From a virus, in the IMG/VR virus record IMGVR_UViG_3300042731_006140, positions 1 through 23,182 of that record: 23,182 bases of DNA; one strand, written 5' to 3'. Below, piece by piece: positions 9,616-22,996 of this stretch. How positions within the stretch are numbered: the stretch's first letter is position 1; the number at the start of each line of letters is the position of its first letter. Under the pieces are notes generated by a model. It searched no databases and had not been told where the DNA came from. It saw only the letters and a program-made list of their open reading frames with translations. The position numbers were made by a program, and so were the translations under genes.

Positions 9616-9900
9616 TTAAATAAGTCTCTCACTAACGATCGTTCTCATAACGTCTTTTTCTATTTCAGTTTTCCAAAATTCAAAAGCCACGTAATCTTCT
9701 GAATTTTCGAATAAATTAACGTTGTGTTCTAGGTCGTTTGAGCATATAAATATAATACCCTCATCTTCAAATAAATCGTTGTTTTTATCTCTTTCTATAT
9801 ATCCATCATCATTAAGATAGAAGTATTGTGAGCGGCGACGATATTTCATTACTATCTCGCCGCCACATTCTGGACAATATACTTTTTTATGTTTTGTCAT
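9616..9900 (-). CDS. Small zinc-ribbon-like protein
   Basis: A 94-aa protein that begins KHKKVYCPECGGEIVMKYRR. The CPEC knuckle and a later C-S-N-D-L-E-H (IICSNDLEHN) offer Cys2 plus Cys/His ligands, so a zinc ribbon is likely. An acidic segment lies between them. The ATG overlaps the beta subunit stop codon in an ATGA junction, so it is probably translated together with the polymerase beta subunit. A transcription-associated role is tempting because of this coupling but is not shown. No known family is recognised. Confidence 0.65.
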   Translation of the reverse strand: MTKHKKVYCPECGGEIVMKYRRRSQYFYLNDDGYIERDKNNDLFEDEGIIFICSNDLEHNVNLFENSEDYVAFEFWKTEIEKDVMRTIVSERLI

Positions 9901-12896
9901 TTATGTTCTACTCCCAAGACAGTCAGATAAGAGTTCAATAACTTGACTGATTCTGGAGTTGTATCTAACTCTTTTTTCTCATCTGACAAATCAAATTCTA
10001 TAAGATCTCTAATGTATTTATTCTTCAAGTCAATGCAATCTGATTTTGTTGTTAAAAACTCAAAGAGGTTTTTTGGTGCGTCATGCCCAATAATACAGGC
10101 AGTTTCCATTTCTCCACACCTTTGGCCTCCTTTATTTTTCCTTCCACCAAGTGGTTGTAATGTTCTTTTTGCATAAACACCAATTCCTCTTGCTGCTAAT
10201 TTTTCTTCAGCAATATGAACCATTCTAAAGAAATACATAAAACCTACTGCAATTGGATTAACTAAGAAATCTTTAGAAACAGGATCGTAAATTTTTTGTT
10301 TAAATTTACTATATGTATATTCCATTGCTTTTTTGAGGTCTTTAATTTTCATTGATTCAAAAGGTGGTTGAATAACTTGAAGATCAAAAATAAACTCACG
10401 AGTTATTACTTTGGGAAGTTGTTCAACAAATTGGTTATAATACCAACTATCTTTCGTTTTATCTACAATTTTTATGTAATTCAACAAATATTTTTTAACT
10501 TCATTGTTTGATTTTCCATCTTTTAACATTTCCACTAACTTCTTTTTTAAAGCATATAGAGACATTGAAAGATGTAACTCATAAAGCTGGCCGATATTCA
10601 TCCTGGAAATTATTCCAAGAGGATTAATACAGATGTCTAAATGCCTTCCGTCTTCGAGTTTTGGCATTTTTTCATGTTCAACAATTCTTGAAACAACTCC
10701 TTTATTTCCGTGTCTATTTCCAATTTTGTCCCCAACTTTTATAGGTCTTAAATACACACCATACATCTCAACCTTTAGACCATTAATTTTTTCTCGTTTT
10801 TCTTTATATTTTCCAACGAATGAGAATATATCTAAATTGTTTTCTTTAATAAACTTTTCAGCCTCTGCTCGAGGAAGTTTATCTTTAATTATTTTTTTAA
10901 GGAAATTTTCCCTTTCTTGTTGAACAGCAATTTTTTCTTCAACCCATCTTTCAAATTCTGGAATTTCTTTATTCCAATCATTTGCATATATGTTTATTTC
11001 TGGAATTATAAATTTTTTCTCTGCTTCTAATGAAATTGTTTCACTAAAAACAGAATATAAATCTTCTGAGTTCAAAGTTTTGATCTTAGCATATGGGTTT
11101 CCATTCTCGATAATATCAAACTCATCTGGTAATGGTTTAAATTTTCCCTTTTCTAAACTCAAAAGAACCTTATTTGGACTAATGGCAAATGACAAATCTC
11201 TGTAATGAACTGAAGTTAAAGTTTCTTCATTCACAAGTCGTTTAGAAATTACAATTCCATCTTCGTAGTTATTACCATAATATACCATTACTCCAGTCAA
11301 GAGATTTTTTCCGAAGTTTATATTACCATTTTTACAGAAGTTGCTTTCTGCTAAAACTTCGTTAGCTGTAAATTTATCTCCTGGTTTAACATAAACTTGC
11401 ATAAAATCCATATTTTCAACATAGATTTTTCTATATGAAATGTTAAAAATATCAATTTCGCCATCGTCATATTGAACTATAAGGAATTTTGTGTCGATGT
11501 GAAGAACAACTCCGTTCTTTTTTGCTCTCTTTACAAATTGAGTTTGGTCAGAATATAATCCTTCACAACCAGATGAAATCATGGGTTTGTCAAAGTTTTT
11601 TAACATGATCGATTGTCTCATCTGAGATGAAGCCATTTGAAGTCTAGTTTGGTCATCATGTTCATGGAACGGAACCATAGATACTGGAACTGAGATTGGT
11701 TGCTTATCTAGTTGTTTATTTGTAAATTTTAAATTTTCATCCAAATCTACATTTGGAAGAAGATTTTGTAAAACTCCACAATTATCTCTATCAGGCGTAT
11801 CAACTGGGCAAACTCTCCCGAACATTGTTGGGCAAACATCTCTTAAATGTTTTGGTATATTTTCTCTTTTAAATCCACCTGGTCCAAGAAGACTTATTCT
11901 AGATAACTTTGTTAATTCTTCAATTGGATTAATTGAAAAATCAAACTGAACAATATCAGAAACGTTACATTCAGAAATTATTTGATTTGAATTTATATTA
12001 AATTTTGGCTGCCTACTGGTTCTATTTGAAAAACACAAATCAAATATATTTTTTGATATTTTAGAATATATTACGTATTCAAAACATCTTATACGTTTAT
12101 TTATAAAAAGAGTATCATCAACGTATCCCACTCTTATTGCTTCAACCAATTCATCTAGTATAGTTGGTTGTTTCATAAATTTTGCAGTTAAAATATCTAC
12201 TTTTGGGATTAAATCAAGAGCATACATAATATCTTCGCCCTTTGATTTTGCATTATATTTTGAATATTTCCTTCCAACTTCATGTATAAAATCATCTTGT
12301 GTATAACCTTTAGATGATTCTTTATATAGATTTAAGTCATACATCAAAAGTTCAAATAACTCTTTGCTTTTTTCGTTTGCATTTTTTATTTCTTTTTCGT
12401 ATTTGTTTAATAGAGTGTCTAATCCAAAATATGCAATCATTAGTAATATAAGAGAAACTTTCTTTCCAAGAAAACTAACTTTTACAAAGGGCTCTTCTCG
12501 ATCTTTAAAGATCATTAATGTTGCAACGTTCGTTCTAAATTTAATTGTTTCTCCTCTTGTAACAATTGGTATGTCAAACAATTGAAACAAAGGAATCTTT
12601 TTTCTTCCATTTATTAACATATAATTATTGTTAACTAATTTTGGAATAAATATACTTAGATCAATAGAAGAGTTTCCTTTTTGGAGTCTAATTGCCAATG
12701 TTTGCTTTAAGGTTTTTGTTAATTCTCCAGATGAGAATCTTGAATCTTTTAATCCCAATTCAGTTATATTAAAACCCAATTCTTTTACTGGTTTAACTAT
12801 TTCACTAACTATATCCTCCATCATATTATAATCAGTTTCTCGAATTTTAAAAATGTTCTTTTCGTTTAGCTTGAAAATCGGATTTATAATGTTCAT
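9897..12896 (-). CDS. rpoB: Phage multi-subunit RNA polymerase, beta subunit (single chain)
   Basis: This forms one half of the catalytic cleft of a cellular-type RNA polymerase. The protein is 999 aa, against about 1340 in E. coli, and the N-terminal lobes are shortened. Segments in order: FIPKLVNNNYMLINGRKK near residue 85-100; RISLLGPGGFKRENIPKHLR and CPTMFGRVCPVDTP (about 333-368), the fork-loop region; YYGNNYEDGIVIS (about 538-550), with the E-D pair near the active centre; KVGDKIGNRHGNKGVVSRI (about 719-737); INPLGIISRMNIGQLYELHL (about 756-775); and QPLGGRKNKGGQRCGEMET to LTTKSDC (about 912-952), the C-terminal anchor that contacts beta-prime. All hallmark segments are in one chain. 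The start overlaps the beta-prime stop (ATGA). Confidence 0.95.
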   Translation of the reverse strand: MNIINPIFKLNEKNIFKIRETDYNMMEDIVSEIVKPVKELGFNITELGLKDSRFSSGELTKTLKQTLAIRLQKGNSSIDLSIFIPKLVNNNYMLINGRKKIPLFQLFDIPIVTRGETIKFRTNVATLMIFKDREEPFVKVSFLGKKVSLILLMIAYFGLDTLLNKYEKEIKNANEKSKELFELLMYDLNLYKESSKGYTQDDFIHEVGRKYSKYNAKSKGEDIMYALDLIPKVDILTAKFMKQPTILDELVEAIRVGYVDDTLFINKRIRCFEYVIYSKISKNIFDLCFSNRTSRQPKFNINSNQIISECNVSDIVQFDFSINPIEELTKLSRISLLGPGGFKRENIPKHLRDVCPTMFGRVCPVDTPDRDNCGVLQNLLPNVDLDENLKFTNKQLDKQPISVPVSMVPFHEHDDQTRLQMASSQMRQSIMLKNFDKPMISSGCEGLYSDQTQFVKRAKKNGVVLHIDTKFLIVQYDDGEIDIFNISYRKIYVENMDFMQVYVKPGDKFTANEVLAESNFCKNGNINFGKNLLTGVMVYYGNNYEDGIVISKRLVNEETLTSVHYRDLSFAISPNKVLLSLEKGKFKPLPDEFDIIENGNPYAKIKTLNSEDLYSVFSETISLEAEKKFIIPEINIYANDWNKEIPEFERWVEEKIAVQQERENFLKKIIKDKLPRAEAEKFIKENNLDIFSFVGKYKEKREKINGLKVEMYGVYLRPIKVGDKIGNRHGNKGVVSRIVEHEKMPKLEDGRHLDICINPLGIISRMNIGQLYELHLSMSLYALKKKLVEMLKDGKSNNEVKKYLLNYIKIVDKTKDSWYYNQFVEQLPKVITREFIFDLQVIQPPFESMKIKDLKKAMEYTYSKFKQKIYDPVSKDFLVNPIAVGFMYFFRMVHIAEEKLAARGIGVYAKRTLQPLGGRKNKGGQRCGEMETACIIGHDAPKNLFEFLTTKSDCIDLKNKYIRDLIEFDLSDEKKELDTTPESVKLLNSYLTVLGVEHK

Positions 12897-15589
12897 ATTA
12901 TTTTTTCTCCTTTGAGAATCTTATCCATAACGCCAGAATATCTTCCTTCATGAAGGATCCCTTGTAATATACTTCGTTTTGGATTTGAAAAAGCCATAGC
13001 AAGTATCCAACTTTCTTGATGTGGCACACTCTGGATGCTATAGAAATTTGGTTCAATTTTATCTCTATTTTTTAATAATCTCCACTTTCTAAAATCTTTC
13101 CACATAAGCTGAGAAACTACACATTCAAAATGAACATGATGAATATTTTTATTATAAACGTCAAATAACGAATCTACTATTTCTATATAATTTTTTCTTT
13201 TAAATTTATGAAGTAAGGATGTAACAGAAGCTAAGTCGCCAATAATATCTTGTTGACGCATGTCATTAGATTTAGCTCCTTTTATTGCTGCTCCAGAAGT
13301 ATGAAATGTTCGAAGAACTAATTGAGTTGATCTTTCTCCAAGAGTTTGTGCTGCTATAATTCCAATAAACCTACTATTCAAAACTTTATATAATTCTCCA
13401 TAACATTTTTTACAAATCTTGGGGCTCTTACATAAAATTGGGCTTCTTATTTTAATTACTTTTCCAACATTATTTTCATAATTTTCTTCTGTGATTAATT
13501 CATAACCATCTTTGCTGGTTTTCTTCCAACGATCAACTAACATAGAAGCTTTTCTTTTGTTTTTAACATCTACTTCTAAGCAATCTGCTGTTCCACAATC
13601 TTCAACATCCTCGCTAATTTGTAAGTTTGCGCATGTAAAGATTAGTTTCCTTGATAAATATCCAGAAGTTCCTGTATTTAATGCAACGTCCAGAAGGCCT
13701 TTTCTACAACCATAAGTTGAATAGAAAAATTCTTCTTCTGACAAACCATCTAGCAAACTATGCTTTATTGGCAAAGGTAAAATTTCACCGTCGAAGTTTG
13801 AGATAAAGCCTCTGGTTAGAATTAGTTGTTTAACTTGATCCCAGCTACCTCTAGCTCCTGATTCGATCATATATGAGTATGCAAACTTATTTTTTAAAAA
13901 ATCAGTAACTTTTTTATCTGACAAAGCAGTTAATTCTTCTCTAAAATTTCCCGTATATAATTTGTTTTTAAGCTCATCTGCTTCTTCTACTAAAAAGTCA
14001 TCAAGTGACATGGTTGAACCAAACAATGTAGCATATTTAAAACCAATTCTTTTTATTTCATCAAGAATTTTTGATGCTTCATTTCCTGAATAATTATTTT
14101 TGATATTGTTTAATATATCAATTAAGGTTTTTTTGGTTACAACTTCATCCACCAACTCGTAATCTTCGGGGAGACATTCGTTAAAGATCTTGCGACTTTT
14201 TGTAATTTCCTTTTCTTTAAATTTAACTTTGTTATTTAGATTTTCAAATTTATTTGATGTTAAGGCATAAATTCCTAATATTACATCTTGACTTGGAGTT
14301 GTTGATAAATTTTTATTTGCTGGACTGCTTAAATTTTGTGTTATGAACATTTTTTCAATTACTTCTTGTTTTGCTTCTTCAGTAACTGGAATATAAACAG
14401 CCATTTGATCTCCATCAAAATCTGCATTAAATGGTGGACAAACCAAGGGATGGATCTTGATTACAGAACTGATAGTTAACTTTATTTTAAAACCTAACAT
14501 ACCAAGTCTATGTAAAGATGGTTGTCTATTCAAAATACATACTTCATTTTTAATAATATCTTCACATATTCTATATAAGACTGTTGATTTTGTTTCAATA
14601 CATTTGTCAACAAAATCAATTGCTTTATTGAGTAATTTATATTTTCCAATTTCAATTATCTTTTTAGCAACTGGTAATTTAAATATTTCTAAGACCATAA
14701 AATATGGGAGCGCACATTCAGTTAAATTTAAAGTTGGGTCTGGAACAATTACTGCTCTCCCAGAAAAATCAATTCTTTTTCCTAAAATATTTCCTCGTAT
14801 TAATCCTTCTTTTTTTGACATCTTTGCTAAAATTTCAGTATATAGCTCATTTACATCTTTTTGTAATTGTTTAAAGTAAGTATAATATAAAACTTTATCT
14901 TTATGAAGGTTAATGATAGTTTCCCTCATTGCTTCTTTTTTAGTTAGTATCTGAACATAATATCTATTTATTTTGTCCATAAGTTGTTTATTTTTTCCGC
15001 CTACTGGAGATGCTGGCCTTAGATCTGGTGGTAAAACAATAACATTTTTTATCAATAAATTATCAATATTATCTAAAATCATTTTCCACTCTTTGAGACC
15101 ATCTTCTGCCCCATCAGTTGCTATAATTTCAACGAGCTTTCTAATCGCTTCTGTTTTTTCCCAAGTTTGTGCACCTTTTGGAATTTGCTTTTGAGAAAAC
15201 TCAACAGCAAGGTTGGCACCATCTAGGTATAAAATGCTTTTATCTTGTTTCATTAAATCATCCAATGCGCTTTGTAGATTTTTTCCTTCTATATTAGTCA
15301 ATAAGTCATAAAATAATGGGTTTATAACTGGGATTGGAAGCGCAATTTTTGCAAATCGTTTTCGTCTTTCGTCACTATTGACAATATCGACGTTACAAAA
15401 ATCACATTTCCCGCCAGATTTTGAAACTCCATAATATTTTCCACATTGGCATGTATAATTTTTAATTGGACCAAAAATTTGCTCAGAGAATAACCCATTT
15501 GGGTGGTAATGCTTTTTTCCCATGATTTTTATAGACGTCACTTCGTCTAGATTTTCACAAAATTTTTCATAGTTTAAAATTTTTGGCAT
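12893..15589 (-). CDS. rpoC: Phage multi-subunit RNA polymerase, beta-prime subunit (single chain)
   Basis: This is the catalytic, magnesium-binding subunit. The protein is 898 aa, against about 1400 in E. coli, so it is compact. Features in order: GLFSEQIFGP and zinc finger 1, CQC-x12-CDFC (C47, C49, C62, C65); VLPPDLRPASPVGGK (rudder/lid region, about 185-199); GNILGKRIDFSGRAVIV (about 266-282); ILNRQPSLHRLG (about 352-363); NADFDGDQMAVYIP (388-401) with D390, D392 and D394 for magnesium; SGARGSWDQVKQLILTRGF (bridge helix); GCRKGLLDVALNTGTSGYLSRKL (trigger loop, about 627-649); zinc site 2, DCGT...LCKSPKICKKCYG; and QLVLRTFHTSG. It starts four bases after a 68-aa gene, with a GAGGAG site. 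The sequence looks bacterial-like rather than split as in phiKZ-type jumbo phages. Confidence 0.96.
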   Translation of the reverse strand: MPKILNYEKFCENLDEVTSIKIMGKKHYHPNGLFSEQIFGPIKNYTCQCGKYYGVSKSGGKCDFCNVDIVNSDERRKRFAKIALPIPVINPLFYDLLTNIEGKNLQSALDDLMKQDKSILYLDGANLAVEFSQKQIPKGAQTWEKTEAIRKLVEIIATDGAEDGLKEWKMILDNIDNLLIKNVIVLPPDLRPASPVGGKNKQLMDKINRYYVQILTKKEAMRETIINLHKDKVLYYTYFKQLQKDVNELYTEILAKMSKKEGLIRGNILGKRIDFSGRAVIVPDPTLNLTECALPYFMVLEIFKLPVAKKIIEIGKYKLLNKAIDFVDKCIETKSTVLYRICEDIIKNEVCILNRQPSLHRLGMLGFKIKLTISSVIKIHPLVCPPFNADFDGDQMAVYIPVTEEAKQEVIEKMFITQNLSSPANKNLSTTPSQDVILGIYALTSNKFENLNNKVKFKEKEITKSRKIFNECLPEDYELVDEVVTKKTLIDILNNIKNNYSGNEASKILDEIKRIGFKYATLFGSTMSLDDFLVEEADELKNKLYTGNFREELTALSDKKVTDFLKNKFAYSYMIESGARGSWDQVKQLILTRGFISNFDGEILPLPIKHSLLDGLSEEEFFYSTYGCRKGLLDVALNTGTSGYLSRKLIFTCANLQISEDVEDCGTADCLEVDVKNKRKASMLVDRWKKTSKDGYELITEENYENNVGKVIKIRSPILCKSPKICKKCYGELYKVLNSRFIGIIAAQTLGERSTQLVLRTFHTSGAAIKGAKSNDMRQQDIIGDLASVTSLLHKFKRKNYIEIVDSLFDVYNKNIHHVHFECVVSQLMWKDFRKWRLLKNRDKIEPNFYSIQSVPHQESWILAMAFSNPKRSILQGILHEGRYSGVMDKILKGEKII

Positions 15590-15800: not shown

Positions 15801-16346
15801 TTATGTAATCCTACTTGTTTTATAAAACTCTTTGCCTGGTGCATAATAACAATGGTCTAAATTCCAATGGTGTAGATCTTCTCTTATACTTCTCCAGAGA
15901 TGATAATTTAAAAAAGTTTCATAGTAATCTGGATTAAAGCAATAATGACCATCTCTATAATCTACATTTGGATGGTTTGCAGTAAATACAAAAATACTTT
16001 TTATCAAATAATTTTCAGATATACTATAAGGTGCTACTCCATGTCCAGTATTATCTTTAAAACGATTACAATGTATTTGGTATTTTTCAATAATTAAATC
16101 ATTACATACTTTCTCTAATAAATAATATTTTCCATTTTTCTTTAAATATTTTGGAACTATTTTATCATAGAAAATGCAATTCAAATGTGCTTCCGTCTTA
16201 TAGATTTCAATGTCTTTTAATAATCTTAAAGAAGTATCTACATTTTTATAAAATTTTATATCATTTAAAAATGATCTTGTTGTGTTTCTTGGTTTATAAT
16301 TTTTAGGCGCCCCCATATTCTTTAATGAGGTGAATACAAAATTCAT
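15801..16346 (-). CDS. E2-like (UBC-fold) protein with HPN...Cys motif
   Basis: This 181-aa protein carries VFTANHPNVDYRDGHYCFNP (about residues 120-139). In ubiquitin-conjugating E2 enzymes the pattern is HPNh...G.hCL, with the active Cys eight residues after the Asn. Here H125-P126-N127 and C136 are nine residues apart, one residue longer than most E2s. The preceding ENYLIKSIFVF fits the strand before HPN, and the following YHLWRSIREDLHHWNLDH fits the helix after the active-site loop. The N-terminal 100 residues are basic and less recognisable. The start at 16346 has AGAGGAGGG upstream and overlaps the E1-like gene by 44 bases; the alternative ATG at 16316 has no site. I infer thioester-linked Ubl transfer; unproven. 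Confidence 0.7.
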   Translation of the reverse strand: MNFVFTSLKNMGAPKNYKPRNTTRSFLNDIKFYKNVDTSLRLLKDIEIYKTEAHLNCIFYDKIVPKYLKKNGKYYLLEKVCNDLIIEKYQIHCNRFKDNTGHGVAPYSISENYLIKSIFVFTANHPNVDYRDGHYCFNPDYYETFLNYHLWRSIREDLHHWNLDHCYYAPGKEFYKTSRIT

Positions 16347-17163
16347 TTACCCTCCTCTCAAACCGTACAACATAACTAGAATCGTCTTTTTCGATCAATT
16401 GTAGTAATTTAGGTATTACATCCACAGGAATATTCAAACTATCCTTTGGAATTATACTTCTGGTGTTTTCTAAACCACCAATGACAATTTCAATATCTTG
16501 TTTTTTATTTTTAGTATAAATTGGTTTGAGGTTTTCTTCAATTTGGATCAGTCTTTCAGAACCTTTATAAGCATCACAAATCATATCTTCTCGATTCTGC
16601 AAAATTCCCTGTATGTCTTCTTTAACTGCTGGTATTAAACTGTTTATATCTACTGTTTGAACTAATTGGTTCTTTAATAGTGTGTATATTTGTTCACTGT
16701 TTATTATTCTTGTTGCAAAAAACGCGGCTGTATTTATTTCATCTTTCATTAAGTTTATTAAATATCTTCCAGGAATTGGATTATTACAATAAACATTTTT
16801 CTTACAATTAATTACAAGAAAATTTTCTGAAATATATAACTTCATGTCAATTTCTTTTTTTCTTGTACAAATAATATCTCTACAATCTATCACTAAATCG
16901 CATTTTGGTAACTTAGTTATTCCTTCTTCGTATTTTTCATGTATCTTTGTAACTTCGACATTATTACTAGCAAATCTAAATACCGCGTTTACTTTTGAAT
17001 CTCCTACGTCAGTTTTCTTGAACATTGACGTTGCTAAATTTTTTACCTCGACAAAATCGGGGTCTATCGTTACGAGATGCTTCACTTGATCTAGTTCTGA
17101 AAGGTGCTTACAAAGAAAACTACCTAAGCTTCCAAGACCTATTACACATATTTTTTCAAACAT
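16303..17163 (-). CDS. ThiF/E1-like Rossmann protein, divergent second copy
   Basis: E1-like proteins adenylate the C-terminal Gly of ubiquitin-like proteins. This 286-aa protein has CVIGLGSLGSFLC (nucleotide loop, G9-x-G11-x-x-G14) and TIDPDFVEVKNLATSMF (D34, N42), where the Arg usually found after NLx is Ala. It also has GDSKVNAV (K57) and DLVIDCRDIICTRK (D93 and D96, like the 'D-C-T-D-N...R' segment of MoeB/ThiF). Candidate Cys residues are C120 and C126. The C-terminal 120 residues resemble nothing I know. The lost Arg suggests reduced or altered adenylation, or a partner-binding role. The start has AAAGGAGGT at good spacing. It overlaps the E2-like gene, suggesting the two act as a pair. 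Confidence 0.75.
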   Translation of the reverse strand: MFEKICVIGLGSLGSFLCKHLSELDQVKHLVTIDPDFVEVKNLATSMFKKTDVGDSKVNAVFRFASNNVEVTKIHEKYEEGITKLPKCDLVIDCRDIICTRKKEIDMKLYISENFLVINCKKNVYCNNPIPGRYLINLMKDEINTAAFFATRIINSEQIYTLLKNQLVQTVDINSLIPAVKEDIQGILQNREDMICDAYKGSERLIQIEENLKPIYTKNKKQDIEIVIGGLENTRSIIPKDSLNIPVDVIPKLLQLIEKDDSSYVVRFERRVNEFCIHLIKEYGGA

Positions 17164-17234: not shown

Positions 17235-17693
17235 TTAACCTTTCTTTCCGGTGGGTTTCAAGAACTCAAGACGATCTTCTTCTTTAAGAACATAATCGTT
17301 ACCCACTTCTTTTCCGTCTACTAGACCAGTTGACATACGAGTTACATTTAGAACTTCTCGTAAGTATTCTGCAACTTCACCAACTGTTCTACCAACAACT
17401 GGAAAGTTCCCCGTATTTGCCCCACAGGATACTTCAATGGTTGTTGCTGTTCTATTACCAAAATTAGCTTCTGGCTTATTCATAACACTTGTAAGTTGTG
17501 CCTGAAGTCCACTCATTGGCTTTCCTGTGGTAACAGTAGCTGAAGCTCCACTATCCTGTTCGGACAAAATGGCTTCAATTACTTCAGCTTTTGGGCTCTT
17601 GCTTACGCCTGAAATTCCCAATTCTCTAAATGCCATCTTTTTCATTTCTTTGGCATTCATGTTTTCAAGTTCTTGACGTGTGTAAAGTGGCAT
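17235..17693 (-). CDS. Ubiquitin-like (beta-grasp) protein with N-terminal SAP/Rho-N-like domain
   Basis: A 152-aa protein. Residues about 84-149 show a beta-grasp pattern: TTIEVSCGA (strand), NFPVVGRTV (strand), VGEVAEYLREVLN (helix), TGLVDGKEVG (strand), and YVLKEEDRLEFLKP (the 'L..gDrLeF' segment of ThiS/MoaD-like and bacterial ubiquitin-like proteins). It ends in TGKKG with a free C-terminal Gly and no extension, so no processing step is needed. PRTRC protein C-type Ubls end in a comparable GxKG. Residues about 6-45 (RQELENMNAKEMKKMAF... to EVIEAILSEQ) look like a SAP/Rho-N helix-extended-helix domain that could bind nucleic acid. A Ser/Thr/Gly-rich linker joins the parts. It lies between two E1-like genes, with AGGAGG before the ATG. 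Confidence 0.82.
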   Translation of the reverse strand: MPLYTRQELENMNAKEMKKMAFRELGISGVSKSPKAEVIEAILSEQDSGASATVTTGKPMSGLQAQLTSVMNKPEANFGNRTATTIEVSCGANTGNFPVVGRTVGEVAEYLREVLNVTRMSTGLVDGKEVGNDYVLKEEDRLEFLKPTGKKG

Positions 17694-18398: not shown

Positions 18399-19700
18399 TT
18401 ATCCTTTCAAATATTTTCTTAACCAAGCTATTGGTTTATTCTTTAGATTTTCTGGAATTTCATCGGGCTTAGGGATTTTTTCTCCAGCTCTATGTCCATC
18501 TTCAAACACTTGACCATAAAGAAATTCGGGGCTCTCATGTTGTTCTTTAACAATATTTTCTATGTGTTGCTCTCCGAATTTTTCTTTATCTGAACCGGTT
18601 CCATCATCTGCTGCCATGAATACAGTATCATCTGGGATAAAATTATTTATTGGGTTTTCTACTTCATCGTCGTCTGGTTCTGTATATTGTTCCAGTGCCC
18701 AATCTATTTTGGTATCTCGAAATACACACTCACAGCATGGATTAAAGTCATCGTCATCAAGATCATAATCATTATCATTATCAAATGATTTAGCTTGTTC
18801 ACTTATAACCTTTTGGTCGAGTTCAAGGGGATTTTTATTTACAAGCGGATTTCCAATGTGAGCATAATATGCTTGCCAAAATTCCGCCCAACCTTGCTTA
18901 TCAACTCTATTCTGAATGTTTTTCCAGTTCCCTTTATTAAATGTGGGAACTACATACTTAACTTTCTTCAACCAATTTCGGTTAAATGTTTTTTGGGAAA
19001 CTGGAATATTTATAAAATATCTGGGTGTATAATATTTAGATTTATATGGTTCGGATTCCACTTCTATAAGTTTCCCGTTTATATATTTATAAACTTTTCT
19101 ATAAGATTGAGTTTGAATTTCTTCAATCTTTTTTAATTTATCTATGTAGTCTTCTGGTTCTCCAACAAATCTTGTTCCATTTGCAGTTATTGAAAGAGAA
19201 ACTCCCACGTTGTCACTTGCAACATAACCAACAGTGATATGTAAGCCATCATTATCTGTATACTCATCTTTATCATCAGTTGGAGAATGAAATGCAGACA
19301 TGTTACCGTGACTATGAATGTCTCCAAGTAAAGTATAATCTCTTATTTGTATATTTCGATCATATTCGCATTTTGCCATGCTTACTTCTTGCTTTGGAAT
19401 AACAATTTTAAAGTTCTCGGTGTTTTGGTTGTAAAATAATAAAGCAACTGCTTCAGCTCTATGTTTTTCATGAACTGCTTTAAAGAACTCAACAACTTTC
19501 GCGAACATGGGTGCTGGAATCATGGGTATATTTAAAGAGGCTGTTGATTTAATTTCATTTAAAATAGAAATTTTGTCAACTTTAGCTATACTTTCTAAAA
19601 CACCCATTTTTTTCTTTAAATATACTCCATCTTTTGCAACTATATAACAAATATCGTCTTCTGGAAGTTTTTCGCTATCATGTAAATAAATATTAAACAT
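18399..19700 (-). CDS. JAB/JAMM metallo-isopeptidase (Prok-JAB, PRTRC-A-like)
   Basis: The start chosen is ATG 19700-19698 (433 aa). AAAGGAG lies nine bases upstream, and it overlaps the 863-aa gene by 8 bases. A frame-open start at 19796 would overlap far more. The JAMM zinc motif is complete: E83 (AEAVALLF), H129-S-H131, seven residues, S139, two residues, D142 (DIHSHGNMSAFHSPTDDKDE). The AFHSPTDDKDE segment closely resembles PRTRC-A / Prok-JAB proteins, as does the N-terminal YIVAKDGVYLKK. JAMM enzymes cleave isopeptide bonds after a ubiquitin-like C-terminus. The C-terminal half is unusual: an Asp-rich stretch, a CCEC cluster, then an acidic low-complexity tail. Its neighbours are the E1 and Ubl genes. 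Confidence 0.87.
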   Translation of the reverse strand: MFNIYLHDSEKLPEDDICYIVAKDGVYLKKKMGVLESIAKVDKISILNEIKSTASLNIPMIPAPMFAKVVEFFKAVHEKHRAEAVALLFYNQNTENFKIVIPKQEVSMAKCEYDRNIQIRDYTLLGDIHSHGNMSAFHSPTDDKDEYTDNDGLHITVGYVASDNVGVSLSITANGTRFVGEPEDYIDKLKKIEEIQTQSYRKVYKYINGKLIEVESEPYKSKYYTPRYFINIPVSQKTFNRNWLKKVKYVVPTFNKGNWKNIQNRVDKQGWAEFWQAYYAHIGNPLVNKNPLELDQKVISEQAKSFDNDNDYDLDDDDFNPCCECVFRDTKIDWALEQYTEPDDDEVENPINNFIPDDTVFMAADDGTGSDKEKFGEQHIENIVKEQHESPEFLYGQVFEDGHRAGEKIPKPDEIPENLKNKPIAWLRKYLKG

Positions 19701-22284
19701 TAAGGAATCTCCTTTCGTCAAGATCAAATGAAAGAATAGATAATCTATTTTTAACAAACATACCATAAAAGTTTGGTAATGCTTCCACTTTTTCAAACTC
19801 CATCCATTGATTTTGCGTATATCTTGGACTTAAAAATCCAAATGGTTTGGCGTTTCGTCTTGTCTCGTTATTAAATGTTTGTATCTGTGGTTGACTAGCA
19901 ATCTTATACAAACTAGTTCGTATGTACCTTATTCCCCTATTATATGGATTACTAAATAATATTACTGGGTCAGAACTAATTCTTTGACTAGTAATAATTA
20001 TATCTCCTGGTTGTAATTTTATTTTTGTTAAGTCAATTGGAGAAATAGTTAATTTATTTTGTTCTGAATCATCTGTTGGAATTATCTCAAAATCTTCCTT
20101 TAATTGATCTGGCCAAATAGTACAACAATTTGAACATAATACTAATGGAATATCTCCGCCGGTATCTGTTAAAAATCCAATTATCATATTAATATCTTTT
20201 TGTGGGAAATTACATATTCGTGGTTTGTTGGATTTAATCATAGTTCCAGAACGAATTCCATTATATTCATTTGTTATATGTCTAACAGTCCCAGTTTTTA
20301 TAAACATATAATTAGGAGAAGTATATTGACGTAGTGTATCTTGTTCGATAAATGGGTATGAAATAATACTACCATCATCAGATTTTGCGTTAATATAAAG
20401 TTTACCACTATCTTCAGTTTTAAATTCAGTAATAGTTTTTGGTTTTATCATTTCAGTTGGATTATCCCAATCAGAAATAACTATCCAATCTCCTACAGAA
20501 AACTCTAAAGTATAGTTAAAACTTTTTACTTTAAGTGTTTTTCCACCATTTATAAGAAGTTCTGAAATGACATCATTAAAATTAGGCACAACATATTTAC
20601 AATTTTCTTTTTTAATAATTCCATTTGTTGGGTGGAAGTAACCAAGTCCGGCATCACTTTCATTAGTGTATTTATCCACTAGTCCATATAATCTTGTTCC
20701 ATGCATAAATATTTTTGGAATTTTTTCTAGTTTATTATGATCATAAGTTTTGGTCCAAATATTATTTGAGTAATTAATTAAACGTTCACTACCAGTATTC
20801 GTATCAATAAATTTAGCTTGAAGGTTACCATTTCTATGAACACCCATACCGATATATCTACCACAAAATGCTACTTGAGATGGCAGCCCACTGACAGTTC
20901 CAGTAGTAAGTAAGTATTCATTTCCTTTTTTTAATTTTATTCCATCTATTTCAGGATCTTTTAGGTTTACTTTTTTAATATTTTTTATATTCTCAAGTAA
21001 ATAAAAATCTTTTCCTAGTTTTGCCTCAACTTTTCCATCAAAACTATATCTCAAATATTGAAGTTCTTTATAACCTTTTACGCCGTAACTATCAATTTCT
21101 ACTATATCTCCTGCTTTTATTTTGGTTCCTTTAATTGTAGCTGTATGAAAACACCTTTGTTCTTCTGTTTTCTTTCTAAGAAAAGCTACTACTTGTTTTG
21201 TTAGTTTCATTATGATTTTTTTATTAGACGGAGAAAGCAGTCGAACATGTGAAATATTTCCACATTTTTTACCTAAAAATGAAATAACGAAAAACCTTTT
21301 CCCTTTTATAATAATTTCATCTTCAATAAATAGATTTATTCCATTTCCAAGATTAATATAATTTGCCATATTATCATAAATTTTTGTGCTATCAGTTTTT
21401 GTAAGATTCGTAACAGAAGAACTTTTATCAAATAATCTTGTAATTTCAGAGAAGTTTGAAATTCCATAATATTTTTCATTATGTTTTCTGCGCGAAATAT
21501 AGACGTCACCTAATTCTAATAGTATTTCTTTAAGATTTCTTTTATGTGGAACCCAATCTACATTATAAACAAACATTGGATCAACTTTAGTATAATGTTG
21601 CCAACTTAATAAGTCACCAACATATTGATTATTTTCATAAGAAATTACGTTTGTTACATAATCTTCGTTAAAAGTCGATCCCCAAAAACGATTGATTACT
21701 CCGATAATTGCTTCATCAATACTAATATAATATTCTCCACGACCCAAACATACAGCTTGATTTTCTGATATGTTATAAAGGGGAATTTTATATAGAATAT
21801 CGCCAATCCCTTGAAGGGGTAAGTGCCGTAGAAAAACCATTAGTGTGGATAAACTGGCGGTCTCAGTATTAAATACCATAATATATTCTATGAAAGGAAA
21901 TGCTAAAGTATATTTTTGTTTTCTTTTTCTAGCAGGTAAATTTTTATAACCAAATTCAATTAGTTTTCCTTGGGTCTTTAACTTTGATAAAGCACCACTT
22001 AAATTAACGCTAGCAATAATAGTTCTTATTTCTGGATCTTGTTCAATAACATAAACAGTATGTCTAGAAGATAACTTTTTAATAAGTCTACAATTTCTTG
22101 GAATAACAAGCTCTCTGCTTTTTGGTGCACCAAATGAAGCATTCATTCGATCAAGAAGAACATCAGTTTCGATAAACTTGTTGTTTGTAATATCTATTGA
22201 TTTTTCACCTTCGCCATAAGCAGAAACGTCACAAGTATAAATTTTAGAAAAATTTTCATTAATTCGTAGTTCTTTAATTATCAT
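19693..22284 (-). CDS. Large protein with Prok-E2 family D (PRTRC-B)-like domain
   Basis: An 863-aa protein. Residues about 125-210 match the PRTRC-B / Prok-E2_D pattern: LAFPFIEYIMVFN, then PLYNISENQAVCLGRGEYYIS, then INRFWGSTFNED. In that family the Cys of 'h.hC.G' (here C179) is the proposed catalytic Cys of an E2-like fold lacking the usual HPN His. The remaining 650 residues are beta-rich with recurring 'h.h..GD.h.h' units (IKAGDIVEI about 389-397, LKKGNEYLL about 451-459, FSVGDWIVI about 595-603, LQPGDIIIT about 757-765). These suggest repeated small SH3-like barrels for substrate or partner binding. This is far longer than usual PRTRC-B proteins. The start overlaps the upstream stop (TAATG), with GAGGTG before it. 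Confidence 0.72.
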   Translation of the reverse strand: MIIKELRINENFSKIYTCDVSAYGEGEKSIDITNNKFIETDVLLDRMNASFGAPKSRELVIPRNCRLIKKLSSRHTVYVIEQDPEIRTIIASVNLSGALSKLKTQGKLIEFGYKNLPARKRKQKYTLAFPFIEYIMVFNTETASLSTLMVFLRHLPLQGIGDILYKIPLYNISENQAVCLGRGEYYISIDEAIIGVINRFWGSTFNEDYVTNVISYENNQYVGDLLSWQHYTKVDPMFVYNVDWVPHKRNLKEILLELGDVYISRRKHNEKYYGISNFSEITRLFDKSSSVTNLTKTDSTKIYDNMANYINLGNGINLFIEDEIIIKGKRFFVISFLGKKCGNISHVRLLSPSNKKIIMKLTKQVVAFLRKKTEEQRCFHTATIKGTKIKAGDIVEIDSYGVKGYKELQYLRYSFDGKVEAKLGKDFYLLENIKNIKKVNLKDPEIDGIKLKKGNEYLLTTGTVSGLPSQVAFCGRYIGMGVHRNGNLQAKFIDTNTGSERLINYSNNIWTKTYDHNKLEKIPKIFMHGTRLYGLVDKYTNESDAGLGYFHPTNGIIKKENCKYVVPNFNDVISELLINGGKTLKVKSFNYTLEFSVGDWIVISDWDNPTEMIKPKTITEFKTEDSGKLYINAKSDDGSIISYPFIEQDTLRQYTSPNYMFIKTGTVRHITNEYNGIRSGTMIKSNKPRICNFPQKDINMIIGFLTDTGGDIPLVLCSNCCTIWPDQLKEDFEIIPTDDSEQNKLTISPIDLTKIKLQPGDIIITSQRISSDPVILFSNPYNRGIRYIRTSLYKIASQPQIQTFNNETRRNAKPFGFLSPRYTQNQWMEFEKVEALPNFYGMFVKNRLSILSFDLDERRFLNV

Positions 22285-22673
22285 TATTCACCTCTATAAA
22301 ATTTTACTTTCTTTGCAAATTCAGTTAAAATTTTCTTGGTTGATTTTCCTTCAATTTTATATGTTTTAACTCGCTTTAGACCTTTAGTATCATTTAGAAA
22401 AAACTTGGAAAATACTGTCCAAATACCGATTAACCAATTAGTTCCATCTTCACCTTCAAGGTCTAAATCCCTTTCTAGAGTTATATATGAAATTTGGTCA
22501 TGATTAATTCCTGGAATTTCAAGAGATAAGAATATATTTGGACCTTTTGGAAGTCTATTGTGATGTTTTATATTTTTAATCTCTTCATTTTTTATTTGAT
22601 TGCATAGTTCACGTAATTGAACAATCATATCGTCGGTTTTAAATTCTGATATAATTTCATCTAGTATTCCCAT
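22284..22673 (-). CDS. Small phage protein of unknown function
   Basis: A 129-aa protein with a helical acidic N-terminus (about residues 1-40), a beta-containing middle (GPNIFLSLEIPGINHDQISY, then TLERDLDLEGEDG), aromatic-rich WLIGIWTVFSKFF, and a basic C-terminal tail. I do not recognise it. Its stop overlaps the start of the 863-aa E2-D-like gene in TAATG form, and its ATG has GAGGT inside the end of the preceding gene, so it is translationally coupled on both sides. That ties it to the conjugation cassette by position only. Confidence 0.65.
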   Translation of the reverse strand: MGILDEIISEFKTDDMIVQLRELCNQIKNEEIKNIKHHNRLPKGPNIFLSLEIPGINHDQISYITLERDLDLEGEDGTNWLIGIWTVFSKFFLNDTKGLKRVKTYKIEGKSTKKILTEFAKKVKFYRGE

Positions 22674-22675
22674 TT

Positions 22676-22996
22676 TTACCTCACTTTTACTTTATATTGC
22701 ATATCCCCAGCTTTTAAATACTCAACTTTGTCAATTGGTACAGATCTCCATGCTTTTTTCTCAAGATCATAAACTCGTATGATTTTATTCTCTTGCACAA
22801 GTTTGAGTATATTTGCCATATCTATGCTTCTAGATTTTGGATAATCTTTTTTTGGAATTCTGGAAAAATCTAGAGTACAACGCATAATTCTTGTTGTTCC
22901 ATCCTTTTTCTCAAATTTTACAGTTACTTCGCCTTCTTCTCGAATTTTTCTCCAGAATCCAATTGCTGTATCAATTATATTTTTATCTACTGCCAT
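22676..22996 (-). CDS. Small phage protein, DUF2693/SH3-like
   Basis: A 106-aa protein with VTVKFEKKDGTTRIMRCTLDF at about residues 24-44, a block resembling the 'V.F.KkDGt.R.M.CTLdf..IP' pattern of small SH3-fold phage proteins (DUF2693 type). It is followed by RIPKKDYP and a later IIRVYDLEKKAWRSVPIDKV, whose 'VYDLEK..WRS' part also recurs in that group. The match is from memory. Function unknown; possibly a nucleic acid or protein binding barrel. A GAGGAGG site lies upstream, inside the end of the preceding partial gene. Confidence 0.6.
   Translation of the reverse strand: MAVDKNIIDTAIGFWRKIREEGEVTVKFEKKDGTTRIMRCTLDFSRIPKKDYPKSRSIDMANILKLVQENKIIRVYDLEKKAWRSVPIDKVEYLKAGDMQYKVKVR

Follow-up and report, generated by a model that had tools for sequence, protein, structure and literature searches.

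Most of what is known of ubiquitin-like conjugation in bacteria concerns defence against phages. The virus record IMGVR_UViG_3300042731_006140 of IMG/VR, which was analysed as one stretch of 23,182 bases with 30% G + C (called the window hereafter), carries on its minus strand a set of genes whose parts and conservation strongly imply the opposite arrangement, that is, a ubiquitin-like conjugation cassette encoded by a phage and comprising two E1-like and two E2-like proteins. The central member of the cassette is a giant protein of 863 amino acids, in which an N-terminal core resembling the Prok-E2_D family (PF14460) is followed by a long tail of small β-barrels. The giant is probably an E2-type conjugating enzyme of this pathway, whose barrels would bind a substrate or a partner as in UBE2O, a human E2/E3 hybrid; that the tail selects the targets is a reasoned guess by analogy with that enzyme.

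Relatives of the giant protein and conservation of the cassette

As a single query, the giant gave no match in viral contigs, in annotated phages (tblastn) or in the sequences of the PDB. The first relatives were reached through the neighbouring E1a (E1-like protein a) and RNA polymerase genes and then through alignments: that of three giants led to 8 loci, and that of E1a to 73 loci in IMG/VR. These 73 loci, denoted here by L numbers, and the window make up the 74 contigs counted below, over all open reading frames (ORFs) of which profiles were run. The giants themselves form a set of 60 non-redundant proteins of at least 600 amino acids and less than 90% mutual identity. The contigs reach 277 kb and are therefore those of large phages, and the terminase of the window was matched by a T4-type family. 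An earlier sequence-only reading of this DNA had proposed the ORF at 19693-22284 as one giant protein, and the ORF is real; homologues of similar length are encoded at the equivalent position of further virus contigs.

The gene order is strikingly constant across the contigs. E1a was found in all 74, the JAB protease in 73, the ubiquitin-like protein (UBL) in 72, an E2_D-like protein (E2D) in 70, the RNA polymerase subunit β′ in 69, E1-like protein b (E1b) in 68, a second, small E2 in 67 and a family of 129-amino-acid proteins in 51; a giant of at least 600 amino acids occurs in 64 contigs and two giants in 3. The complete set (E2D, JAB, E1a, UBL, E1b, small E2 and β′) is present in 63 of the 74. 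Among the other 11, several contigs break off within the cassette, and departures include L057, in which UBL is fused to E1b, L073, L079, L084 and L085. The genes are tightly packed, with junctions of at most 60 nucleotides in 62/69 cases for E2D-JAB, 68/73 for JAB-E1a, 60/70 for E1a-UBL and 64/67 for E1b-small E2. In addition, an apparently conserved protein of 170-196 amino acids lies between UBL and E1b in some contigs (L003, 7820-8383; L002, 9405-9917; L006, 9939-10529); the two proteins scanned, from L003 and L006, had no Pfam match, and the window has no space for such a gene there.

The E2-like core and its active site

PF14460 matches residues 164-220 of the giant with 25.2 bits in a frame-aware search (curated cut-off, 25) and was found at E ≤ 0.1 in 40 of the 53 N-terminal domains scanned singly (47 giants including that of the window, and 6 other relatives). 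When the core was compared with three PRTRC-B-type proteins by hhalign, residues 118-239 were aligned with a probability of 96.5% and an E value of 7.8e-10, so the earlier assignment of residues 125-210 to PF14460 was right in substance. The core profile gave no match among PDB sequences up to E 10.

Six residues, P130, N171, C179, W201, N206 and W228, are invariant in the 60 giants; among them is the cysteine of the motif QAVCLG, C179, which had been named beforehand as the candidate active residue. N171 precedes C179 by 8 residues in 56 of the 60 proteins, which is the canonical spacing between Asn and Cys in E2 enzymes. Where canonical E2s have HPN, the giant of the window has PLYN, without the His.

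A further histidine, that of an FTH motif, occurs in all three PRTRC-B-type proteins, and the corresponding position 206 is Asn in every giant. According to Iyer et al. 2006 (PMC1779556), the E2 of operon type 6d lacks the usual His, but another His, which follows the Cys, is absolutely conserved; type 6d corresponds to PRTRC according to our reading of its gene content. Because Asn206 replaces this His, the giant is related to Prok-E2_D but lies outside the PRTRC-B group in the sense of PMC1779556. Consequently, the sequence-only description of the giant as a large PRTRC-B protein stands for the E2_D-like core and falls for PRTRC-B proper. PRTRC-B-type proteins are short, as that description had said: 274 amino acids in an annotated PRTRC plasmid, and 205-289 in other short relatives. 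The tree of the cores, in which many branches are weak, requires three switches between a short and a tailed form and leaves room for different numbers of tail gains.

Cys-less paralogues

The giant alignment was extended by 16 more relatives. The Cys is kept in 12 of them and absent in 4, namely the second giants of L089, L091 and L093 and a protein of 717 amino acids in L090 (lengths, 701-906 amino acids). C179 had been staked on its presence in homologues; none of the 60 giants lacks it, and these four relatives do. N171 is also lost in all four, position 206 is changed in three, and an intact E2D adjoins each. The joint loss of N171 and C179 argues that both residues act together, and such a loss beside intact copies is expected if they form the active site. 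To judge from their sequences, the Cys-less relatives look like inactive partners. In L090 an intact short E2D (233 amino acids) is followed by the separate 717-amino-acid protein, so the core and the long extension can sit on two proteins; the placement of the latter is unsure owing to its long branch in the tree. Tandem giants also occur in the virus contigs L012, L057 and L083, with the Cys kept in both copies.

The barrel tail

The AlphaFold2 model of the giant, built on 60 alignment rows, has a mean pLDDT (predicted local distance difference test) of 87.3 and a pTM (predicted template modelling score) of 0.64, and shows successive small β-barrels from about residue 306. The barrel region covers about 500 residues (306 to ~800); thus the β-rich extension noticed beforehand is a long barrel tail, shorter than the 650 residues given for it. 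At least four GD-containing units had been counted in the tail, and four GD places are conserved in the family, at columns 321/322, 392/393, 598/599 and 760/761, with G in 46-56 and D in 46-55 of the 60 giants; the protein of the window has ED at the first.

The borders of the barrel domains were picked by hand from the model. Profile scores between barrels were above 12.5, the value of the best unrelated comparison (E2 core against a barrel), in 12 of the 21 pairs, and the maximum barrel score in 63 column-shuffled controls was 11.2. The model and these scores bear out the proposal that the tail consists of repeated small barrels. Segment B4 (521-582) is mostly unsupported as a repeat, with 1 of its 6 barrel pairs above 12.5, and the barrel-pair tests did not support repeat status for the last 64 residues of the protein.

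Spt5/DSIF entries (KOW) rank first among the Foldseek matches of the giant, followed by SAWADEE and Tudor proteins and, lower, UBE2O; the VIA-align matches, with Z up to 7.1, include DNMT1, Spt5, UHRF1, SETDB1, 53BP1 and UBE2O. As far as the model goes, these KOW, Tudor and SH3-like matches show a common type of barrel, not a function. In a viral structure library, the best matches to the giant were unnamed phage proteins. The tail was also examined for a second conserved Cys such as that of UBE2O, but neither candidate is invariant: 46 of the 60 giants have Cys at the position of C717 and 38 at that of C721. By analogy with UBE2O it is plausible that the tail acts as an E3-like module, as had been suggested.

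Several observations weigh against an E2 enzyme with a substrate-binding tail. Scored over the whole protein, PF14460 reaches 22.2 bits, slightly below the cut-off; the giant lacks the PRTRC-B histidine; and its core gave a weak result (2.2%) when compared by profile with the small E2, even if the Asn-Cys regions were aligned. The N-terminus gave no UBC match, and the VIA-align answer warns that this part was barely tested in so long a model. The structural matches of the tail are middling or weak, the best having a VIA-align Z of 7.1 over 62 residues and that to UBE2O a Z of 4.7 (95 aligned residues, giant residues 383-514). Moreover, the tail need not bind protein substrates, because SH3-like barrels also bind nucleic acid. 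No E2 entry other than UBE2O, which aligned in the barrels, was among the Foldseek and VIA-align matches listed for the giant; because the N-terminus was barely tested by VIA-align, the missing E2 matches are no evidence against an E2 fold.

UBL, protease and E1 proteins

Of the 61 UBL-family proteins, 58 have GxKG at their C-terminus or close to it, and 3 do not show it. Thirty-five proteins end at KG, and the other 23 are longer by 1-7 residues, namely by a single Cys in 14 and by other short extensions in 9; the UBL protein of L079 has three consecutive domains, ending in GRKG, GRKG and, finally, GTKG-DG. Since JAMM residues are present in 61-62 of 63 JAB proteins and the UBLs have such C-terminal extensions, the latter are most naturally read as precursors that are trimmed.

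C169 of E1a is Cys in all 61 proteins compared. In E1b, only C94 is conserved among the Cys residues, and there is a conserved ETGAA-like C-terminus with Ala as the last residue in 55 of 57 proteins. A second ubiquitin-like domain at the C-terminus of E1b was considered and is not supported, since its score against UBL, 11.1, lies inside the range of the shuffled controls (up to 17.9). ThiF-type E1s and Gly-ended UBLs are also found in sulfur carriers, as the relevant portion of Iyer et al. 2006 (PMC1779556) discusses.

The second, small E2

The protein of 181 amino acids at 15801-16346 has an HPN...C motif, with H in 57, P in 54, N in 56 and C in 57 of 57 non-redundant relatives; in the window the Asn is at offset 9 from the Cys. 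Its model has a pLDDT of 81.3, and all 50 VIA-align matches listed for it are titled E2, E2 complex or, for 8qat, Fts-Hook complex, in which Fts is presumably UEV-like (UEV, ubiquitin E2 variant). The best of them is UbcH7 (Z 7.2 over 120 residues), and all listed Z are below 8. Its profile gave three matches among PDB sequences up to E 10, all of them E2s with E values of 0.098-0.86, none significant alone, and UQ_con was matched by 2 of the 57 members, with a best E of 0.0059. Foldseek gave no match at E ≤ 0.001, its list being led by the unrelated p32 and Cas12h with the UEV domain of TSG101 at rank 12, and Pfam gave no match for the protein of the window. Taking these results together, one may regard it, with good though not definitive confidence, as a second E2.

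Gene layout of the window

Ahead of the polymerase genes, the minus strand of the window carries the genes for WYL_2, the 129-amino-acid protein, the giant, JAB, E1a, UBL, E1b and the 181-amino-acid protein, as well as a small ORF of 83 amino acids (Table 1). The ATG of the giant overlaps the stop codon of the 129-amino-acid gene (TAATG), and the start of JAB overlaps the end of the giant, as would be seen in a translationally coupled operon.

Table 1. Features of the window, with the evidence for each.
Feature	Position	Strand	Basis
Giant E2-like protein, 863 aa	19693..22284	-	ORF; PF14460 match; 60-row giant alignment
E2_D-like core, residues ~60-250	21535..22107	-	hhalign to PRTRC-B-type proteins; model
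C179 codon, candidate active cysteine	21748..21750	-	C in 60/60 giants
N171 codon, 8 residues ahead of C179	21772..21774	-	N in 60/60 giants
N206 codon, at PRTRC-B histidine position	21667..21669	-	N in 60/60 giants
Tail of diverged small β-barrels, residues ~306-800	19885..21369	-	Model; Foldseek and VIA-align; internal repeat test
129-aa protein, no assigned function, directly upstream of giant	22284..22673	-	Family in 51/74 contigs
JAB/JAMM protease	18399..19700	-	Prok-JAB 9.2e-7; JAMM residues in 61-62/63
E1-like protein a (E1a, ThiF), candidate active Cys C169	17702..18391	-	ThiF 1.5e-15
Ubiquitin-like protein (UBL): Rho_N, then beta-grasp-like domain, GKKG end	17235..17693	-	Rho_N 1.1e-6, TGS 0.0079
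E1-like protein b (E1b, ThiF)	16303..17163	-	ThiF 3.4e-11
Second, small E2-like protein, 181 aa, HPN...C motif	15801..16346	-	Motif counts; UBC-like model
WYL_2 Sm-like neighbour	22676..22996	-	PF10902 2.5e-10
Phage RNA polymerase beta'	12893-15589	-	Pfam and PHROGs
Phage RNA polymerase beta	9897-12896	-	Pfam and PHROGs

Loci outside the standard phage setting

A short E2D with JAB, E1 and UBL occurs in L088 (Methylomirabilota), where there is an AAA+ gene and where the genes adjoin those for FtsX and an ABC-type ATPase, and in L092 (Lentisphaerae). L089, L091 and L093 are Uhrbacteria/CPR (candidate phyla radiation) loci with JAB, E1, UBL and tandem giants, one an intact E2D and the other Cys-less. 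These loci look chromosomal to judge from their neighbours, which in L091 are CTP synthase, ribosomal protein L9 and, directly upstream, a RuvB-like AAA+ gene. The cultured Bacillus phage vB_BauM_KLEB27-3 (L099, 5615-8708) has an E2D of 270 amino acids, a PRTRC_A-type JAB and ThiF side by side.

Two of the loci adjoin further genes. The phage contig L079 (6936-10702 and 14123-17973) encodes the triple UBL protein, a short E2D, JAB and E1 with a reverse transcriptase (RVT_1) nearby, as well as a RuvB-like ATPase, judged by eye. In L092 (5518-14010), a reverse transcriptase and the short E2D, JAB, E1 and UBL adjoin an apparent CRISPR array, seen as repeated translated units.

Proposed mechanism and alternative explanations

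From the parts, their conservation, motifs and gene order, the following reactions, together with a role for the tail and its targets, may be inferred. The UBL would be trimmed by the JAMM protease as far as its GxKG end and adenylated by E1a, possibly jointly with E1b; carried by E1a on C169, it would then be passed to C179 of the giant, N171 assisting as in canonical E2s. The barrel tail would bind a substrate or a partner, so that the giant could dispense with a separate E3, as UBE2O does, and the JAMM protease could remove the tag too. The small HPN...C E2 may serve a second set of targets or act jointly with the giant.

It is conceivable, if rather improbable, that the giant conjugates while being tethered by its barrels to nucleic acid or RNA polymerase, the tag landing on nearby transcription or DNA-handling machinery and not on a substrate chosen by the tail. 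Several Spt5/DSIF chains are among the top Foldseek matches, the β′ subunit is at the locus in 69 of the 74 contigs, the UBL carries a Rho_N domain, and L005 has SbcC-like and topoisomerase genes upstream. However, no RNA polymerase match was found in the fetched flanks of L079, L088 and L092 or of the bacterial loci L089, L091 and L093; these other loci and the cultured phage mean that the cassette is not everywhere tied to RNA polymerase. In addition, synteny within one virus clade may reflect simple inheritance, and the KOW and Tudor matches are at the level of the fold only. Only tentatively can a fuller scheme be put forward, in which a viral E2/E3 hybrid that arose independently of UBE2O would tag transcription or DNA-handling machinery through its KOW/Tudor-like barrels, served by two E1-like and two E2-like proteins and, in related cassettes, by a Cys-less giant as UEV-like partner.

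It is unlikely that the giant is a scaffold which mainly positions substrate and E2, the small HPN...C protein being the true enzyme and C179 a structural or vestigial residue. The complete motif of the small E2, the occurrence of Cys-less giants beside active copies and the separate proteins of L090 would fit such a role, but C179 and N171 are invariant in all 60 giants, very diverged ones included, and a vestigial site should have drifted, as that of the four Cys-less copies has. That the cassette performs sulfur transfer of the ThiS/MoaD/URM1 kind instead of protein conjugation, as its ThiF-type E1s and Gly-ended UBL might suggest, is very improbable, since the window has two E2-like proteins with Asn-Cys sites, which to our knowledge are not part of known sulfur-transfer systems, and the Pfam scan of 20 proteins of the window turned up neither a rhodanese nor a family of sulfur metabolism.

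Comparison with known systems

With PRTRC-B/Prok-E2_D (type 6d), the giant and its cassette share the E2-like core, N-x7-C and the neighbours JAB, ThiF-type E1 and UBL. They differ in that the core is extended by about 600 residues, Asn206 stands for His, a second E1-like and a second E2 are added and RNA polymerase genes are neighbours, whereas ParB had no match among the proteins of the window (20 scanned in Pfam and 25 in PHROGs; the window is a fragment). UBE2O also combines a UBC-type domain with SH3-like barrel regions in one large chain, and the parallel is one of layout. The order is reversed, with UBC towards the C-terminus in UBE2O and the E2 core N-terminal in the giant; no sequence similarity was found, and the likeness appears to be at the level of the fold, as judged from the model. 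According to PMC12109548, the substrates of UBE2O are bound by its regions CR1 and CR2, and its E2 Cys lies in the UBC domain.

The loci L089, L091, L093 and L090 share with E2-UEV pairs an active E2-like gene beside a Cys-less paralogue. Ubc13-Mms2 is an example of such a pair. Unlike in these pairs, the Cys-less copies are long, the window has a single giant, and the likeness is drawn from the genes alone. Bil and type II CBASS are bacterial anti-phage conjugation systems in which E1, E2 and JAB-type proteins are likewise found in one prokaryotic operon, whereas the cassette of the giant is encoded by phages, its UBL includes a Rho_N domain and its E2 bears a barrel tail. The literature searched, which did not extend to subscription journals and preprints, describes no cassette of this type in a phage, and a term search of the accessible text of the jumbo-phage survey PMC7824862 found no E2-like, JAB, Ubl, ThiF or E1-like.

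Biological significance

A cassette of E1, E2, UBL and JAMM proteins encoded by phages, its order kept in dozens of contigs of large phages, would reverse the anti-phage picture and raise the question of what it is that phages tag, and to what end. In the barrel-tailed E2, prokaryotes would have a counterpart of UBE2O, in which the choice of targets by an E2 without a separate E3 could be studied in a simple setting, and the Cys-less paralogues are a parallel to E2-UEV pairs. Furthermore, the loci with split or short E2 proteins allow the tail to be studied apart from the core, and the short version in the cultured Bacillus phage vB_BauM_KLEB27-3 brings the first tests within reach.

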